This document shows, in pieces, positions 7,193 through 59,856 of a stretch of 64,000 bases of DNA. The stretch is from Verrucomicrobiota bacterium (GTDB taxonomy: Bacteria > Verrucomicrobiota > Verrucomicrobiia > Opitutales > Opitutaceae). How positions within the stretch are numbered: position 1 is the stretch's first letter; each line of letters begins with the position of its first letter. Location: positions 62,001 to 126,000 of the forward strand of contig JACRKC010000006.1 in assembly GCA_016235555.1 (NCBI GenBank), in the 5' to 3' direction. A model generated the notes under the pieces. It made no database searches. It was given only the letters and a program-made list of their open reading frames with translations, and was not told where the DNA came from. The position numbers and the translations under genes are program-made.

Positions 7193-7236
7193 GCTGGGAC
7201 CCTATCCATTTGGCATCCGCTGCCAAGTCGGAGATT

Positions 7237-7262
7237 GGCCGTGCGCGGAGCGCCCGGCCCAC
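7237..7262 (-). repeat. Single REP-like unit, GTGG head
   Basis: A 26-base unit identical to 59671-59696 and one base different from the second arm at 31976-32001. On the minus strand it begins GTGGGCCGGGCGCTCC and ends in GGCC, so it can fold. Unlike most others in the window it has no inverted partner next to it. Confidence 0.65.
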
Positions 7263-7270
7263 CGCGGAGA

Positions 7271-19766: not shown

Positions 19767-19773
19767 CAATCTC

Positions 19774-19892
19774 CGGGGCCTTTGATCGAGCCCGCATGAT
19801 GCCTACGTAAACCGCGGTCTCAGTCGTAGCCGCGAGCGTCAGCGAGTGGTGGTTCGCCCGCTCGCTGGCGCTCGCAGCTACCCCAACCCTGC
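19774..19892. repeat. Copy 1 of a long dispersed palindromic repeat
   Basis: The stretch CCGGGGCCTTTGATC...CCCGCATGATGCC, then CAGTCGTAGCCGCGAGCG, a loop and CGCTCGCAGCTAC resembles 31736-31862 along its whole length. The core is an inverted pair with GTAG/CTAC ends. It lies in the 325-base interval 19767-20091. The remainder of that interval is GC-rich and holds no gene I can support. Confidence 0.65.
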
Positions 19893-20091
19893 CGTCGCAA
19901 GTTTACCGCCTCTGGCGGCGCCGCCGGCGACCAGGCCTTCGGGGGGATCGGACCCATGGCGAAGGAAGGCGCAACCGTGCGCGCCTCGCGGCCACGGCAC
20001 GGCCGGCTTGCGCCGGTGAATAGGTGGCGCGGTTTTCGGTTCGCGTGCGCCGCGGCTTAGCTCTGAGTTGGAGGCTACACCCCGCCTCCCC

Positions 20092-31106: not shown

Positions 31107-31772
31107 TCACCCCAGCAGCGTCAGCGCGATGCCGGCGAGGAGGCCGAGGACGGCGGGGAGTTTCTGGCGGCCGTTCACCTCGCCATAGAGCCAGATGCCG
31201 CCGGCAAACGCGACCAGCGTGCTGCCGCGGCGCAGACTGGCGACGAGCGACACGAGCGCGTCGGGGTGGCGCAGCGCGTCGAAGTAGAGGAAGTCCGCCA
31301 CGAGCAGCCCGAACGAGATCACGAGGATGCTCCAGCGCCAGTGGAACTCGTTGCGCGTCCAGAGGCGGAACTTCCAGGCGAGGGCGAGCGGCAGGAAGAT
31401 CGCGGCGAGGTAGATCGCGAACCACGCCTGCACGGTCGCGGCACTGAAACCCTGCCGGTGCAGCAGAAAGCGATCGTAGAGGCCGCTCGTGGCGCCGAGC
31501 AACGTGCCGGCGACGAGCCAGCCGACCCATTTGTCACGGTGAAACTGGACGCCCCCGCGCGCGCCGGCGAGCGCGAGCCCGACGAAGGACGCGAGCGTGA
31601 TGGCGACGCCGAGAAGCTCGAGCCCGCTCGGGCGCTCGCCGAGGAGCAAGAGGGCGCCGAAGAGTGTCCAGACCGGTCCGGTGGCGCGAATGGGCGACGC
31701 AAGGGAGACGGGCAGGTGCTTGACCGCGAAAAGGCCCCCCCGGGGCATTTGCTCAAACCCGCATGATGCCAA
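31107..31772 (-). pseudogene. EamA/DMT-family transporter truncated at its 5' end by a repeat
   Basis: Residues from about 14 on read FAVKHLPVSLASPIRATGPV and WTLFGALLLLGERPSGLELL, then a complete second EamA half (FHWRWSILVISFGLLVADFL, YFDALRHPDALVSLVASLRR). A normal DMT transporter has about 290 residues and ten helices. Here roughly the first 70-75 residues are absent. The present first codons, including the apparent ATG, are encoded by the right part of the dispersed repeat 31736-31862. The protein, if made, would lack the first two to three helices, so loss of function is likely. A run of seven G lies just inside the junction. Confidence 0.65.
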
Positions 31773-31862
31773 CTCAAGCCGTGGCCCCAGTCGTAGCCGC
31801 GAGCGCCAGCGAGCGGTGGTTTGCCCGCTCGCTGGCGCTCGCAGCTACACCAACCAAGGCGA
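31736..31862. repeat. Copy 2 of the long dispersed palindromic repeat
   Basis: This resembles 19774-19892, including CCCGCATGATGCC, the stretch CAGTCGTAGCCGCGAGCG and the returning CGCTCGCAGCTAC. It fills the space between the EamA remnant and Tex and supplies the first codons of the former. Confidence 0.7.
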
Positions 31863-31882
31863 AGCATGCTTACCGCATGGCG

Positions 31883-34336
31883 CTACTTCTTCTTGTTGAG
31901 CGCAGCGCTGAACCAGTCGCCGGTGAGGTTTTGCGGCGCGCGGGGGGAGGTGGGTGGCGCACTCCGTGCGCCGCCGGCCGCGCGCGGAGCGCCCGGCCCA
32001 CCGGGCGGTTTCTGCCCCGGCGCCGTCTTCGGGCCGATCACGGGATTGCTCCGCATCGAGAGCGCGATGCGCTGGCGCGGGAGATCGACCTCGGTGACGG
32101 TGACCTGGACCTTCTGGCCGGGTTTCACGACGGTGTTGGGTTCCTTCACGAACTGATCGGCGAGCTGGGAGACATGCACGAGGCCATCCTGATGGACGCC
32201 GATGTCGACGAAGGCACCGAACGCGGTGACGTTGGTCACGAGGCCGGGAAGTTTCATGCCGGGCTTCAGGTCTTCGGGCTTGTTGACGCCCTCGGTGAAG
32301 CTGAAGGCCTCGAACTTCTCGCGCGGATCGCGGCCGGGCTTGGCGAGCTCGGCCATGATGTCGGTGAGCGTGGGCAGGCCGACATCGGCGGTGACGTAGT
32401 GCTCGAGTTTGATCTTCGCGCGGAGTTTCGCGTCGCGCATGAGGTCGGCGACGGTGGCGCCGCAGTCGGCGGCCATCTTTTCGACGAGGGCGTAGCGCTC
32501 GGGGTGCACGGAGCTGGCGTCGAGCGGATGCGCGCTGTCGCGAATGCGGAGGAAGCCGGCGGCCTGTTCGAACGCCTTCGGGCCGAGACGCGGAACTTCC
32601 TTGAGATCGGCGCGGGACTTGAAGGGGCCTTTCTCGTTGCGGCGCGTGACGATGGCGGCGGCGACGGCGGCGTTGAGGCCGGAGACGTAGCTGAGGAGTT
32701 GTTTCGAGGCGGTGTTGAGCTCGACACCGACGCGGTTCACCGAGCTGACGACCGTGTCGTCGAGGGAACGCTTGAGCGCGCCTTGATCGACGTCGTGCTG
32801 GTATTGGCCGACGCCGATGGATTTCGGATCGAGCTTCACGAGTTCGGCGAGCGGGTCCATGAGGCGGCGACCGATTGAGACGGCGCCGCGCACGGTGATG
32901 TCGTGGTCGGGGAACTCCTCGCGGGCGACCTCGCTCGCGGAGTAGATGGACGCGCCGGATTCGTTGACCATCACGACGGGGATGGTCGATGGCAGCCCGA
33001 GGGCGCGCACGAAGGCCTCGGTCTCGCGTCCCGCGGTGCCGTTGCCGATGGCGACGGCCTCGACTTTGAAGAACTTCACGAAGCCGAGAATCTTGTCCTT
33101 CGCCTCCTCGGCCTGGCGGTCGGGGTAGACGACGTCGTTGTGCAGCAGCTTGCCCTGGCGATCGAGGAGCACGCATTTGCAGCCGGTGCGAAAACCGGGA
33201 TCGATCGCGAGCACGGCGCGCTGGCCGAGCGGGGCGGAGAGGAGGAGTTCGCGGACGTTGTCGGAGAAGACCTTGATGGCGGCTTCGTCGGCGCGCTTTT
33301 TCGATTCGAGGCGCATCTCGGTTTCCATCGCGGGGGCGAGCAGGCGCTTGGCGGCGTCCTGCACGGCGAGCGTGACGTGGTCCGAGCAGGTAAGTGGTGT
33401 GGGGGTAGGGGCGGCCGGCCCCAGCCGCCCTGGGTTGCTGGGCGCGCTGGGCGAAGGCGCGTTGGAACCCAGGCCGGCTCGGAGAGCCGGCCCTACCTTC
33501 ACGAAGAGCGACTGCACCTCGGCGAACGCGGCGGCTTCCTCGGGCAGCTGCACGCGCATCATGAGGAAGAGTTCCTTTTCGCCGCGGCGCATCGCGAGCA
33601 CGCGGTGCGACGGGGCCTTGGCGAGCGACTCGCTCCACTCGAAGTAGTCCTTGAACTTGGCCGCCTCGGGATCGCCGTCCTTACCGGGGACGACCTTCGA
33701 TGAGACGACGGCGTCTTTCTGGAAGAGGGCGCGGAGCTTGGCGCGGGCGTCTTTGTCGTCGGCGATGCGCTCGGCCAGGATGTCACGGGCGCCGGCGAGC
33801 GCTTCGTCGGTGGAAGCGATGGTGGAAACCTGATTCTTGCCATCGTCGGCGGTGTATTCGCGACCGACGTAGTCCTTGGCCGCGGCGAGCGGATCAGTGG
33901 CGGCGTCCTGGGCCCAGATGAGTTCGGCGAGCGGTTCGAGGCCCTTTTCCTTGGCGATGGTGGCCCGTGTGCGCTTCTTCGGGCGGAACGGCAGGTAGAT
34001 GTCCTCGAGGACGGCGAGCGTGTCGGCGGCAGCGATGGCCTTTTCGAGCGCGGGCGTGAGGAGGTTGCGCTCCTTGAGTGAGGCGAGGATGGAGGCGCGG
34101 CGCTCGTCGATGGCGCGGAGGTTTTCGAGACGGTCGCGGATCGTGGTGATCTGGACCTCGTCGAGCTCGCCGGTGACCTCCTTGCGGTAGCGCGCGATGA
34201 AGGGCACGGTGGCGCCCTCGGCGAGCAGCTGCGCGGTGGCGGCGACTTGGAAGACCTTGACGTTGAGCTCGGCCGCGAGGCGGAGCACGTGGTCGGCGTT
34301 GGGTTGCGTGGGGGTCGGCGTGGCGACGGCGGACAT
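31883..34336 (-). CDS. tex: Tex family RNA-binding transcriptional accessory protein
   Basis: About 817 residues from ATG 34336. The N-terminal Tex helices read AEGATVPFIARYRKEVTGEL and DIYLPFRPKKRTRATIAKEK. The YqgF-like domain follows (AVLAIDPGFRTGCKCVLLD, then AIGNGTAGRETEAFVRALGL), then the helix-hairpin-helix part (DPKSIGVGQYQHDVDQGALK, GPKAFEQAAGFLRIRDS) and an S1 domain (TNVTAFGAFVDIGVHQDGLV). The order is that of E. coli and Pseudomonas Tex. Tex binds nucleic acid and helps transcription-related processes. Two REP-like elements are embedded, at residues 281-311 (before the YqgF domain) and about 779-796 (in the tail after S1). Both lie in regions with no conserved function. Confidence 0.9.
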   Translation of the reverse strand: MSAVATPTPTQPNADHVLRLAAELNVKVFQVAATAQLLAEGATVPFIARYRKEVTGELDEVQITTIRDRLENLRAIDERRASILASLKERNLLTPALEKAIAAADTLAVLEDIYLPFRPKKRTRATIAKEKGLEPLAELIWAQDAATDPLAAAKDYVGREYTADDGKNQVSTIASTDEALAGARDILAERIADDKDARAKLRALFQKDAVVSSKVVPGKDGDPEAAKFKDYFEWSESLAKAPSHRVLAMRRGEKELFLMMRVQLPEEAAAFAEVQSLFVKVGPALRAGLGSNAPSPSAPSNPGRLGPAAPTPTPLTCSDHVTLAVQDAAKRLLAPAMETEMRLESKKRADEAAIKVFSDNVRELLLSAPLGQRAVLAIDPGFRTGCKCVLLDRQGKLLHNDVVYPDRQAEEAKDKILGFVKFFKVEAVAIGNGTAGRETEAFVRALGLPSTIPVVMVNESGASIYSASEVAREEFPDHDITVRGAVSIGRRLMDPLAELVKLDPKSIGVGQYQHDVDQGALKRSLDDTVVSSVNRVGVELNTASKQLLSYVSGLNAAVAAAIVTRRNEKGPFKSRADLKEVPRLGPKAFEQAAGFLRIRDSAHPLDASSVHPERYALVEKMAADCGATVADLMRDAKLRAKIKLEHYVTADVGLPTLTDIMAELAKPGRDPREKFEAFSFTEGVNKPEDLKPGMKLPGLVTNVTAFGAFVDIGVHQDGLVHVSQLADQFVKEPNTVVKPGQKVQVTVTEVDLPRQRIALSMRSNPVIGPKTAPGQKPPGGPGAPRAAGGARSAPPTSPRAPQNLTGDWFSAALNKKK
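31950..32001. repeat. REP-like pair in the tail of tex
   Basis: The ends are GTGGGTGGCGCACTCC and GGAGCGCCCGGCCCAC. The right arm repeats 7237-7262 with one change. It encodes the Gly/Pro/Ala/Arg-rich sequence PPGGPGAPRAAGGARSAPP near the Tex C-terminus. Confidence 0.65.
33405..33496. repeat. REP-like inverted pair inside tex (GTAG/CTAC)
   Basis: The left arm is GTAGGGGCGGCCGGCCCCAG and the right arm ends GCTCGGAGAGCCGGCCCTAC. Both continue into the CCTGGGTT/AACCCAGG pair, so they are matched although their stems differ. It encodes about 30 residues (ALRAGLGSNAPSPSAPSNPG and onward) without a stop. Confidence 0.78.
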
Positions 34337-38498: not shown

Positions 38499-38508
38499 CC
38501 TTTTTTCT

Positions 38509-38602
38509 GTCATTCTGAGCGCAGCGAAGAATCCAATTGAACTTTCGCCGCGGTGCGCGCCGACGAATCTCCTGCTGGATTCTTCGCTTCGCTCAGAATG
38601 AC
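38509..38602. repeat. Inverted pair with ATTCT/AGAAT stems
   Basis: It begins GTCATTCTGAGCGCAGCGAA and ends TTCGCTTCGCTCAGAATGAC. Each arm can form a hairpin of ATTCT with AGAAT. A related copy lies at 56962-57043. It sits between uxaC and the transporter gene. Confidence 0.78.
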
Positions 38603-38637
38603 AAATCCAGTCAGCGCGTTCCCCACCACCCCCGCCT

Positions 38638-51540: not shown

Positions 51541-52443
51541 ATGTCCCTCCGTCTCGCGCTCAAAGTTGATGTCGACACCGACCGCGGCACGCGCGAGGGC
51601 GTGCCCGATATGGTGGCTGACCTGAAGGAAATTGGCGCGCCGGCGTGTTTCCTGTTTTCGCTCGGGCCGGATCAGACGGGGCGCGCGATCACGCGCGTGT
51701 TGCGGCCGGGGTTCTTCAAGAAAGTTTCCCGCACGAGCGTGGTCTCGATCTACGGCGTGCGCACGCTGCTCAATGGCACGCTGCTGCCCGCGCCGCATAT
51801 CGGCCGGCGCAACGCCGACACGATGCGGGCGGTGCGCGACGCCGGTTTCGAAGTCGGAATCCACTGTTACAACCACTACCGCTGGCAGGACTACGTGCAG
51901 ACGATGGCGATCGAGGAGATCCGCGCGGAGTTCGTGGCGGCGCGGGCGGAGTTCGTGCGTATCTTCGGTGGAGAAGCGCCCACGGCCGGCGCGGCGGGCT
52001 GGCAGAGCAACGCCCGCAGCCGCGAGGTCTACGACGAGGCCAACCTGCTTTACGCGAGCGACACGCGCGGGGCGTCACCGTTTTTTCCGCGCGTCGACGG
52101 CAAGGTTTTCAAAACTCTGGAAATCCCGAGCACGCTCCCGACGTTCGACGAGCTGATGGGGCGGCCGGAATATCCGGACGAGAAGATTGCCGCGCACTAT
52201 TTGTCGCTGCTGCGGGAGGATCGCGTGAACGTGCTCACGATCCATGCCGAGATCGAGGGCATGGGCCGGCGAGGGCTGTTTCGCGAGCTGCTCGCCGCGT
52301 GCCGGCAGCGCGGCGTGGAGTTCATCCGGCTCGACGACTACGCCAAACAGCTTCTCGCCAATCGCGCCGCCATCCCCGTGGGCGATCAAGTGATGGCGGA
52401 GATCGACGGCCGGAGCGGAGTGGTGGCGGTGCAGGCGGGCTGA
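51541..52443 (+). CDS. arnD: ArnD: 4-deoxy-4-formamido-L-arabinose-phosphoundecaprenol deformylase
   Basis: About 300 residues from ATG 51541, which has a good ribosome site (AAGGA at 51531-51535). It opens LRLALKVDVDTDRGTREGVP, the ArnD form of the NodB polysaccharide deacetylase fold. Further parts are GFEVGIHCYNHYRWQDYVQT (the metal-binding His-x-x-x-His) and APTAGAAGWQSNARSREVYD. ArnD removes the formyl group from undecaprenyl-linked Ara4FN before transfer to lipid A. It pairs functionally with the ArnA-type gene at 49080. arnB, arnC, the formyltransferase and arnT are not in the window. Confidence 0.85.
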   Translation: MSLRLALKVDVDTDRGTREGVPDMVADLKEIGAPACFLFSLGPDQTGRAITRVLRPGFFKKVSRTSVVSIYGVRTLLNGTLLPAPHIGRRNADTMRAVRDAGFEVGIHCYNHYRWQDYVQTMAIEEIRAEFVAARAEFVRIFGGEAPTAGAAGWQSNARSREVYDEANLLYASDTRGASPFFPRVDGKVFKTLEIPSTLPTFDELMGRPEYPDEKIAAHYLSLLREDRVNVLTIHAEIEGMGRRGLFRELLAACRQRGVEFIRLDDYAKQLLANRAAIPVGDQVMAEIDGRSGVVAVQAG

Positions 52444-52445
52444 GG

Positions 52446-52731
52446 GTAGGGACGGCTCTCCGAGCCGTCCTGGGTCGGTGGGTGATTTCGAGGCCGCGTG
52501 TATGAACCTAGCTTCCGCAATCGAACCGCAGAGATCGCAAAGCACGCAGAGAGAAAAAGCTCGGTGGCGGCACGTCGTCCCCCTTCGCCCATGAGGTGAA
52601 CGCCGCGTGGTCAGCACGAAAAACCGGAGAGTCTCTCTTTGAGTCCTTTGCGCTCTTTGTGGTTAATTCCAGCTGCGTTTTCTAGGATGAATCCGCGCTG
52701 GAGCTCGGACGCCTCGGAGAGGCGTCCCTAC
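52446..52731. repeat. REP-like pair with nested element; GTAG head forms the LptF/G stop
   Basis: The left arm is GTAGGGACGGCTCTCCGAGC and the right end is CGCCTCGGAGAGGCGTCCCTAC. Stem and head match 16439-16510. Between the arms lies a 170-base unrelated repeat. The right CTAC read on the minus strand is GTAG, whose TAG (52730-52728) ends the permease gene. Confidence 0.8.
52512..52681. repeat. Copy 2 of the ~170-bp dispersed repeat, flanked by CTAG
   Basis: It runs from CTTCCGCAATCGAACCGCAG to AATTCCAGCTGCGTTTT and matches 28646-28812. CTAG stands directly on both sides (52508-52511 and 52682-52685), a possible target duplication like that of the 19382-19506 element. Confidence 0.75.
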
Positions 52732-56961: not shown

Positions 56962-57043
56962 GTCATGCTGAGCGCAGCGCAGAACCCGGCAGGAGGCCCG
57001 CGGGCGGGAGTCGCGGTGGATTCTGCGCTGCGCTCAGCAGGAC
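56962..57043. repeat. Inverted pair related to 38509-38602
   Basis: It begins GTCATGCTGAGCGCAGCGCA and ends TGCGCTGCGCTCAGCAGGAC. It lies between fdhD and the start of the TPR gene, next to a piece of the ACCACGGATTACACGGATGA type (56919-56938). Confidence 0.72.
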
Positions 57044-58598: not shown

Positions 58599-59540
58599 AT
58601 GACCCTCGGTGACTGGTTGACCTCGACGGAGCAGCGCTACGCCCGATCCAAGGTCGCGCTCGGCCAGGTGGCCACCAACGCCCACGACGAGGCGCTCTAC
58701 TTGCTTCTGCGCACCCTCGATCTCCCGCTCGACAGCGAGGCGCGCGTGCTGGCGAGGAAGCTCTCCGCAGCCAACCAGGCCAAACTCGACGCCGTGCTGC
58801 ACCGCCGGCTCGTCGAGCGGGTGCCGGCGGCCTACCTGACGCGCGAGGCGTGGCTGGGCGAACACCGCTTCTACGTCGACGAACGCGTCATCATTCCGCG
58901 CAGTTATTTTTTGGAGATCATCCCGCAGCTCGGCTGTAGGGCGGGGTCGCCGAACCCCGCCGTTCGGACCGCACGCCCGGATCAAAAAAAAGCGGGGTTC
59001 GGCGACCCCACCCTACAACCATCCGTTCGCCGGGTCGCCGATGTCTGCACCGGCTCCGGTTGTCTCGCGATCCTGCTCGCGCACCACTTTCCCGGCGCGA
59101 CGGTCGACGCCTGCGATCTCTCGGCCGACGCGCTGGCGGTGGCGGACATCAACGTCCGCGAGCACGGCCTCACCCGGCGCGTGAAATTATTCCAGAGCGA
59201 TGTCTTCGATGCCGTGCCCGCGGTGAAATACGACCTCATCCTCAGCAACCCGCCCTACGAGCCCAGCGCGCTCGTCGACGCGCAGGCGCCGGAGTTCGCC
59301 GCCGAGCCGCGGATGGCGCACGACGGTGGTGTCGACGGCCTTGCGATCGTGCGGAAGCTGCTCGCGCAGGCGCGCACGCGGCTCGCGCCGCACGGCATCG
59401 TCGTGATCGAGGTGGGCGGCCTGCGCGCGGCGATCGACCGGGAATTCGCGGCGTTGCAGCCGCAATGGCTGCCGACCGAAGACGGGTCCGACTGCGTGTG
59501 CCTGTTTCAGGCTGAACGATTGCGGCGGGCTGCGCGCTGA
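58599..59540 (+). CDS. PrmB/PrmC-family protein glutamine N5-methyltransferase
   Basis: About 313 residues from ATG 58599. N-terminal helical domain EALYLLLRTLDLPLDSE, then ERVPAAYLTREAWLGEHRFY and IIPRSYFLEI, the form seen in PrmB (ribosomal protein L3). Motif I is VADVCTGSGCLAILLAHHFP and the catalytic motif is ILSNPPYEPSALVDAQAPEF (Asn-Pro-Pro-Tyr). Between LEIIPQLG and VRRVADVC there is an extra stretch of 27 residues made by a REP-like repeat (58936-59016, exactly 81 bases). This lies between the N-terminal and catalytic domains. PrmB is favoured over PrmC because of the Pro-Arg-Ser block, but the difference is small. Confidence 0.8.
   Translation: MTLGDWLTSTEQRYARSKVALGQVATNAHDEALYLLLRTLDLPLDSEARVLARKLSAANQAKLDAVLHRRLVERVPAAYLTREAWLGEHRFYVDERVIIPRSYFLEIIPQLGCRAGSPNPAVRTARPDQKKAGFGDPTLQPSVRRVADVCTGSGCLAILLAHHFPGATVDACDLSADALAVADINVREHGLTRRVKLFQSDVFDAVPAVKYDLILSNPPYEPSALVDAQAPEFAAEPRMAHDGGVDGLAIVRKLLAQARTRLAPHGIVVIEVGGLRAAIDREFAALQPQWLPTEDGSDCVCLFQAERLRRAAR
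58936..59016. repeat. REP-like inverted pair inside the methyltransferase gene (81 bp)
   Basis: The left arm is GTAGGGCGGGGTCGCCGAAC and the right arm ends GTTCGGCGACCCCACCCTAC. It is 81 bases, equal to 27 codons, and is open in the gene's frame. It encodes CRAGSPNPAVRTARPDQKKA and seven more residues. Confidence 0.85.
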
Positions 59541-59615: not shown

Positions 59616-59696
59616 GTGGGCCGGCCGCTGCTCCGCGGGCGGCCAGGGCGAGTGAGAACTGAAGTCAACTGGCCGTGCGCGGAGCGCCCGGCCCAC
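59616..59696. repeat. REP-like pair with GTGG heads
   Basis: The left arm is GTGGGCCGGCCGCTGCTCCG and the right arm ends GCGGAGCGCCCGGCCCAC; the right arm is identical to 7237-7262. A further hairpin with CTAC end (59700-59729, CTGGCGCGCGCCAGCGCG) follows. They fill the 316-base interval 59541-59856, which has no gene. Confidence 0.7.
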
Positions 59697-59856
59697 CCTC
59701 TGGCGCGCGCCAGCGCGCTGGCCTACGCGGGAACAATTTGTGCATTCAAACCGGAAAGCCGTGCCGCGGACGGGCTGGCCTGACAATAACAGTCGCCTCG
59801 CGCGCTGTCGTCGGCCTGGATGGGCGAGCTTCGGTTTACCCCAAATCCCCGCTCCG

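Follow-up and report, generated by a model that had tools for sequence, protein, structure and literature searches.

Within prmB, a gene for a 50S ribosomal protein L3 N5-glutamine methyltransferase, 81 bases very probably represent a REPIN of the genome's own GTAG REP family, inserted in or copied over a loop of the enzyme and read there as a disordered loop. The element (58936–59016 of the window, as we call the whole 64,000-nt stretch analysed) is made of two inverted GTAG REPs, as judged from its sequence, its genome family and its folding, and encodes residues 113–140 (C113–Q140), the edge codons being shared with the flanks.

The left REP (58936–58961, forward strand) matches the genome family exactly and consists of the GTAG tag followed by a hairpin, GGCGGGGT/ACCCCGCC, that can be read from the sequence. 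It is followed by a spacer (58962–58991) and by the right REP (58992–59016, reverse strand), which is inverted, carries one changed stem base (GTAGGGTGGGG) and was identified through its matches to the genome family. With flanking bases included, the inverted arms are 29 nt each, 93% complementary and 31 nt apart. The arm pattern matches the window twice, both times in the prmB element, compared with 0.00 matches expected from 100 shuffles. The 81 nt fold far better than shuffled sequences, both as DNA (z = −6.1, 200 shuffles) and as RNA (−58.8 kcal/mol, z = −7.3). An initial annotation had placed the ends exactly at GTAG and CTAC; the element does start and end there, is 81 nt long and is open in the prmB frame, but in the genome's copies the palindrome is usually one base longer on either side, with T preceding the GTAG tag in 49 of 53 copies (position 58935 here) and A following CTAC in 50 of 54 (position 59017).

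The consensus of the family arm is GTAG followed by the hairpin GGCGGGGT-CGCCGA-ACCCCGCC. At two or fewer mismatches this arm occurs 100 times in the genome (8.03 Mb in 140 contigs; 51 forward, 49 reverse), against no match for a reversed-pattern control. The own-genome loci covering all 100 arms contain 24 complete doublets (both arms at three or fewer mismatches, total length 130 nt or less), 22 of which are 67–81 nt long. A RAYT ORF is present on contig C79 (78–614, reverse strand; NF047646, 108 bits against a cut-off of 80), flanked on either side by REPs at 42–65, 556–579 and 637–660, the second of which overlaps its predicted start; the genome has ten Y1_Tnp matches, and the two that were classified are one RAYT and one IS200-type. 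Because of its tag, its inverted arms, the copy number and the REP-flanked RAYT, we assign the prmB element to the REPINs of the GTAG REP family, and the REP-like pair named by the initial annotation is confirmed. The GTAG tag with an imperfect palindrome, the high copy number, the inverted doublet and the REP-flanked RAYT are all those of GTAG REPs; a mainly extragenic location holds for the family, with 47 of 56 mapped elements lacking a gene assignment, but not for the prmB copy. Copy number and RAYT presence also suggest that the REPIN was mobile, which favours the earlier view of a mobile palindrome turned into protein sequence, and the insertion may have been made by a RAYT.

Spacers of this family are mostly unrelated. 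Among the complete doublets, to which the comparison was confined, 4 of 276 spacer pairs scored above the maximum of 21 reached in 20 shuffle rounds (one at 38, the others at 24, 24 and 23). Shared spacers are probably under-counted by this figure, because doublets cut by contig ends were left out and some spacers at the contig breaks C57, C87 and C100 recur nearly unchanged. The doublets L081:5701–5775 and L083:2018–2092 share an almost identical spacer, oppositely oriented, which may reflect recent copying of a whole REPIN. The draft assembly tends to break at REPIN hairpins: a REP lies within 130 nt of the end at 26 of 27 contig ends examined, mostly inside a doublet. Some such ends have identical or almost identical spacers (C45/C68, C57/C87/C100 and C64/C95). 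A long multi-copy element beginning with a REP at contig ends was considered and not supported; most of these contigs appear to stop inside a doublet.

Other repeats were seen alongside this family. A second GTAG-type palindrome (GTAGGGACGGCTCTCCGAGCCGTCC-like) occurs as inverted copies at 33467–33501 and 52441–52475 of the window, and contig C136 ends with a similar sequence. More than one GTAG REP family seems to be present in the genome. Two inverted repeats (38508–38603 and 56962–57043) look related to each other (GTCATTCTGAGCGCAGCGAAGAATC type) and unlike the prmB REP. A repeat pair of 137 nt (19773–19909 and 31740–31876, 84% identical) contains an inverted repeat starting GTAGCCGCGAGC, and a GC-rich 28-nt repeat is present in three copies (7236–7263, 31975–32002 and 59670–59697; 93–100% identity with the first copy), of which the third lies some 130 nt past the prmB stop codon.

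The host gene (58599–59540, forward strand; 313 amino acids plus stop) scores 287.4 bits against the PrmB profile TIGR03533 (cut-off 229.7) and has NPPY at N217–Y220, so that both marks of a PrmB are present. The profile match is split into two stretches, in agreement with the proposed position of the insert between the N-terminal and catalytic parts. The N-terminal part (58599–58934) runs through the conserved PRSYFLE (residues 100–106), in which P100–Y103 are invariant and F104 and E106 nearly invariant in an alignment of 58 PrmB sequences. Beyond the insert, in the same alignment, T151, G152 and S153 of CTGSG (59046–59060) are invariant, as is NPPY (59247–59258). We take CTGSG to be the SAM-binding loop, motif I of the methyltransferase family, and NPPY to be its catalytic motif. 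The invariant residues, T151–S153 and N217–Y220 included, are intact in the insert-bearing protein, and the enzyme motifs on either side had rightly been described as undamaged. The nearest solved fold is that of PrmC/HemK (2b3t and 1nv8).

These features bear on whether the sequence could be an assembly artefact or a decaying pseudogene. The frequent breaks of the draft at REPINs are in keeping with that idea; it is nevertheless very improbable, as both halves belong to prmB, the frame is kept, the invariant motifs are intact and comparable inserts occur in other genomes (see below). Moreover, a single L3-type prmB was found in the genome, the second-best methyltransferase-like match sharing 45% identity over residues 144–271. 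The insert-bearing PrmB may well be made and active.

Comparison with relatives indicated that the loop has lost native residues besides gaining the REPIN. From PRSY to TGSG, the protein has 55 residues here compared with mostly 33–37 in the best 80 loci from GTDB genomes (two of which could not be parsed), where five loops are clearly longer (L129, L166, L184, L192 and L207) and one is shorter (L195, 28 residues). The net gain is therefore about 21 codons against the 27 of the REPIN, and so about six native residues, a DGWLP-type tip, are gone. The 27-codon, in-frame, stop-free reading put forward earlier is correct for the REPIN itself, but not as a pure addition. A clean insertion of exactly GTAG to CTAC was rejected: deleting this segment from prmB leaves GGC TAA, a stop codon, and the gain is not 27 codons. 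That the flanking residues are also changed, so that no simple insertion took place, counts against our explanation to some extent. No relative close enough to show the exact empty prmB site was found. Independent insertion of two REPs on either side of native residues (RPDQKK, which is similar to LPDPKK in one relative) was also considered; this reading is not supported, because the spacer starts with CCGTTCGG like some other REPIN spacers and is of about the usual length.

The insert residues are absent from all 29 other PrmB loci aligned, which have a native loop, and among 139 distinct PrmB sequences the loop holds clear REP sequence in eight and a weak remnant in one. The idea that the residues are an ancestral, ordinary segment of the enzyme, palindromic by chance, has the open frame in its favour and nothing further; with 100 genome copies of the arm, and most relatives lacking the residues, it is refuted by the alignments and we give it practically no credence. 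An AlphaFold model of PrmB has a mean pLDDT of 90.4 and falls below 50 at residues 115–120, 123–126 and 129–139, all within the insert. Of the surface loop that the initial annotation proposed to look for, the model supports a loop predicted to be disordered in an otherwise confident structure. As it precedes the first strand of the methyltransferase domain, the insert is probably remote from the SAM site.

We propose that a REPIN of the genome's own GTAG family entered, or was copied over, a prmB loop that tolerates changes in length and stands just ahead of the methyltransferase domain. The stop-free frame of the REPIN, together with small adjacent losses, would give a total length that keeps the prmB frame, and the REPIN would be translated into a disordered loop some 27 residues long. 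Alternatively, the hairpin may have been kept for a role in the mRNA or the protein, for example slower translation between the domains or tuning of PrmB. The very stable RNA hairpin and the use of the same loop and frame in eight genomes would fit such a role, but most relatives do without the insert, its spacer varies from bearer to bearer, and the bearers include shortened remnants (genomes G111 and G082) and a weak, decayed one (G177), which leaves retention for function an improbable account.

REPs were also read in frame inside other genes of this genome. From the loci of all 100 arms we mapped 56 distinct elements (those less than 150 nt from a locus end were left out) and flagged in-gene candidates with a phase-aware sequence model trained on the window, requiring one coding frame on both sides. 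Eleven were flagged as same-frame; L010 and L016 were dropped after reading of the protein and L036 was dropped with its protein unread, while ManA (L031), unflagged, was added as it aligns with relatives on either side of its insert. We judge that nine of the 56 elements lie in frame inside genes, encoding, from Pfam matches and reading, PrmB, a GT9 glycosyltransferase, an ArnT-like protein, a DinG-like helicase, a histidine kinase, a CusA-like pump, HisC, a PMT/TPR protein and ManA. Pfam matches span the insert for HATPase_c, ACR_tran, Aminotran_1_2 and Helicase_C_2; those of ManA are below the cut-off. In ten genomes searched, the insert is absent from all relatives retrieved of HisC (8/8), DinG (10/10), ManA (6/6), the ArnT-like protein (4/4) and CusA (2/2); different length changes occur at this position in some of the ManA and CusA relatives. 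No relative of GT9 was retrieved for comparison; insert-free relatives were found for six of the nine in-gene elements, which are all those compared.

Six of the in-gene elements are doublets (72, 75, 75, 75, 78 and 81 nt) and the other three genes have a single REP. The REP is read as TGT-AGG (CRAGSPNPA) in seven of the nine and as GTA-GGG in two; the third frame has TAG within the tag. Selection has presumably removed REP insertions that broke genes. The in-gene rate is low in two other genomes, with one of 25 sampled elements in G176 (prmB itself) and at most two of 21 in G162. In G162, by-eye naming gave a SNF2-helicase-like ORF (L318) with a single REP read as CRAGSPNPA, and a kinase-like ORF (L310) flagged in frame that is less convincing.

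A 101-residue PrmB query matched 215 of 252 Opitutaceae genomes, and 14, this one included, align through the insert. REP sequence was found in the prmB loop, in the same frame, in eight of the 252: this genome (G000), G111, G176, G090, G094, G174, G163 and G082. The REP scores of these eight loops were not reached by 500 letter-shuffles and 500 codon-shuffles. The G177 loop, a possible decayed REP, is weak: its score of 26 barely exceeds the best shuffle (25) and the best of 121 native loops (also 25). The insert is therefore absent from most relatives, as had been expected, but REP-derived residues do stand at the same site in other species. The long loops of G197, G245, G243, G162 and G087 (L212, L219, L221, L220 and L222; 41–54 residues from PRSY to TGSG) gave no REP remains scoring above shuffles; judged from sequence, the prmB loop appears to tolerate length change by non-REP routes as well.

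The insert starts at residue 18 from PRSY in six of the bearers (G174, G176, G163, G094, G090 and G111), at residue 14 in G000 and at about that point in G082. Spacers differ between bearers, and G111 and G082 retain shortened forms. We compared the prmB arms with the REP type of each host, leaving the prmB arms themselves out of the host count, and they match in five of eight bearers. Among the matches listed, G000 has TCGCCGA in 39 of 42 exact sites; G176 has TCGCTGA in 50 of 58 exact sites and G163 in 14 of 14 sites, one of the two G163 prmB arms being TCACTGA. The prmB pair of G174 (ATTTCCAA/TCTCCGA) is unusual and recurs at at least three other G174 places among the matches listed. The arms of G094 fit the host type and those of G111 and G082 do so only roughly, while the G090 arms (TCTCCCGA) are absent from that genome's ten REP sites among the matches listed. 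The REP type of this genome is rare in G003 (four matches), where prmB is native.

Taken together, the tree and arm data indicate that the same prmB loop has probably received REPINs several times within the family. On a quick tree of the 139 distinct proteins, built without the loop, the nine bearers (eight clear and the weak G177) need nine changes. A 30-row DNA tree of the richest clade contains a tested group of eight rows (five clear REP bearers, G177, and two whose long loops lack REP sequence), which need eight changes; the starred branches force six. These rows formed one group in none of 200 bootstrap trees, and a single clade was rejected by the AU test (p = 9.6 × 10−32), a value to be read with care because the group was named after the first tree had been seen. 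Well supported native sisters stand beside four bearers: G175 beside G176 (100/100), G161 beside G177 (100/99), G170 beside G174 (100/99) and G091/G093 beside G090 (100/98). Between G176 and G175, identity is 82–93% in four 20-codon windows left of the loop and 95–97% in two to its right.

The flanks tell a less uniform story. They are alike in several bearers (IADLVE-C in G174, G163 and G094; IADIVE-C in G090), while loops of the EQIPQWLP type are found in the nearest relatives of these bearers; by eye, one residue directly ahead of this flank is missing from the bearers. These likenesses, the poor fit of the G090 arms to that genome's listed REPs and the rough fit in G111 and G082 speak for a single old REP insertion in a prmB ancestor, later overwritten by local REPs and lost when native alleles were exchanged in; PMC3767692 describes a comparable dilemma for RPE-4/6/7 of Rickettsia. 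Against the number of changes on both trees, the post-hoc rejection of one clade, the four native sisters and the host-type arms in five of eight bearers, we hold one old insertion to be the less probable course, though a substantial one. Either similar remodelling followed every insertion, or an old haplotype was moved by recombination, with its arms overwritten by local REPs. More tentatively still, the loop may be a real recurrent landing site, at which local-type REPINs arrived many times at the same codon and frame, each with similar remodelling of the flanking helix (one residue lost, Pro and Trp replaced). If true, this would imply target choice by the RAYT or a repeated benefit from a loop there.

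In-gene REPs are already known, and our additions are prmB as a host gene and the repeated site. PMC3733652 describes intragenic GTAG REPs, most numerous in Opitutus terrae, a relative, and most often dimers or groups encoding 20–30 residues, and reports recB tagged at about the same site in two Xanthomonas species. Like those of O. terrae, the elements found here are GTAG palindromes, single or dimeric, inside ORFs; unlike the cases described in the main text of PMC3733652, they include prmB, at the same site in eight genomes, and that text has no mention of methyltransferase, methylase or hemK. Among the open-access papers listed, none was on prmB/HemK with a REP or palindrome insert, and PMC3733652 was the sole relevant one found for REPINs, Opitutus and Verrucomicrobia. 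The resemblance to REPINs as described in PMC3116915 lies in the inverted REP doublets with a spacer and a RAYT in the genome. Those REPINs are primarily extragenic (14 of 1,067 16-mers in SBW25 overlap genes), and the definition in PMC12306157 has REPs seldom overlapping coding regions; here, unlike the REPINs of PMC3116915, we place nine of the 56 mapped elements inside genes.

The initial annotation was right to draw a parallel with Rickettsia palindromic elements (RPEs); PMC3733652 had already done so for GTAG REPs, those of O. terrae included, setting them beside RPE-4/6. As described in PMC2229807 and PMC3767692, RPEs too are translated, in-frame palindromes inside conserved proteins, with solvent-exposed inserts and same-site inserts in orthologues; an RPE-bearing guanylate kinase is translated and active with changed substrate affinity (PMC2229807), and hotspot versus common origin is discussed for RPE-4/6/7 (PMC3767692). 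Repeated use of one prmB codon can serve as a natural experiment to learn if insertions of this kind survive at random, are targeted or are of use; the RPE and REP papers cited here raise this question without settling it. Set against RPEs by description only, the prmB element differs in being an 81-nt GTAG REP pair in Opitutaceae rather than a 105–146-bp element (PMC2229807) in Rickettsia. It would work like an RPE without being filed as one and provides, beyond Rickettsia and with native sister genes for reference, an example of how conserved enzymes can acquire residues from mobile palindromes.
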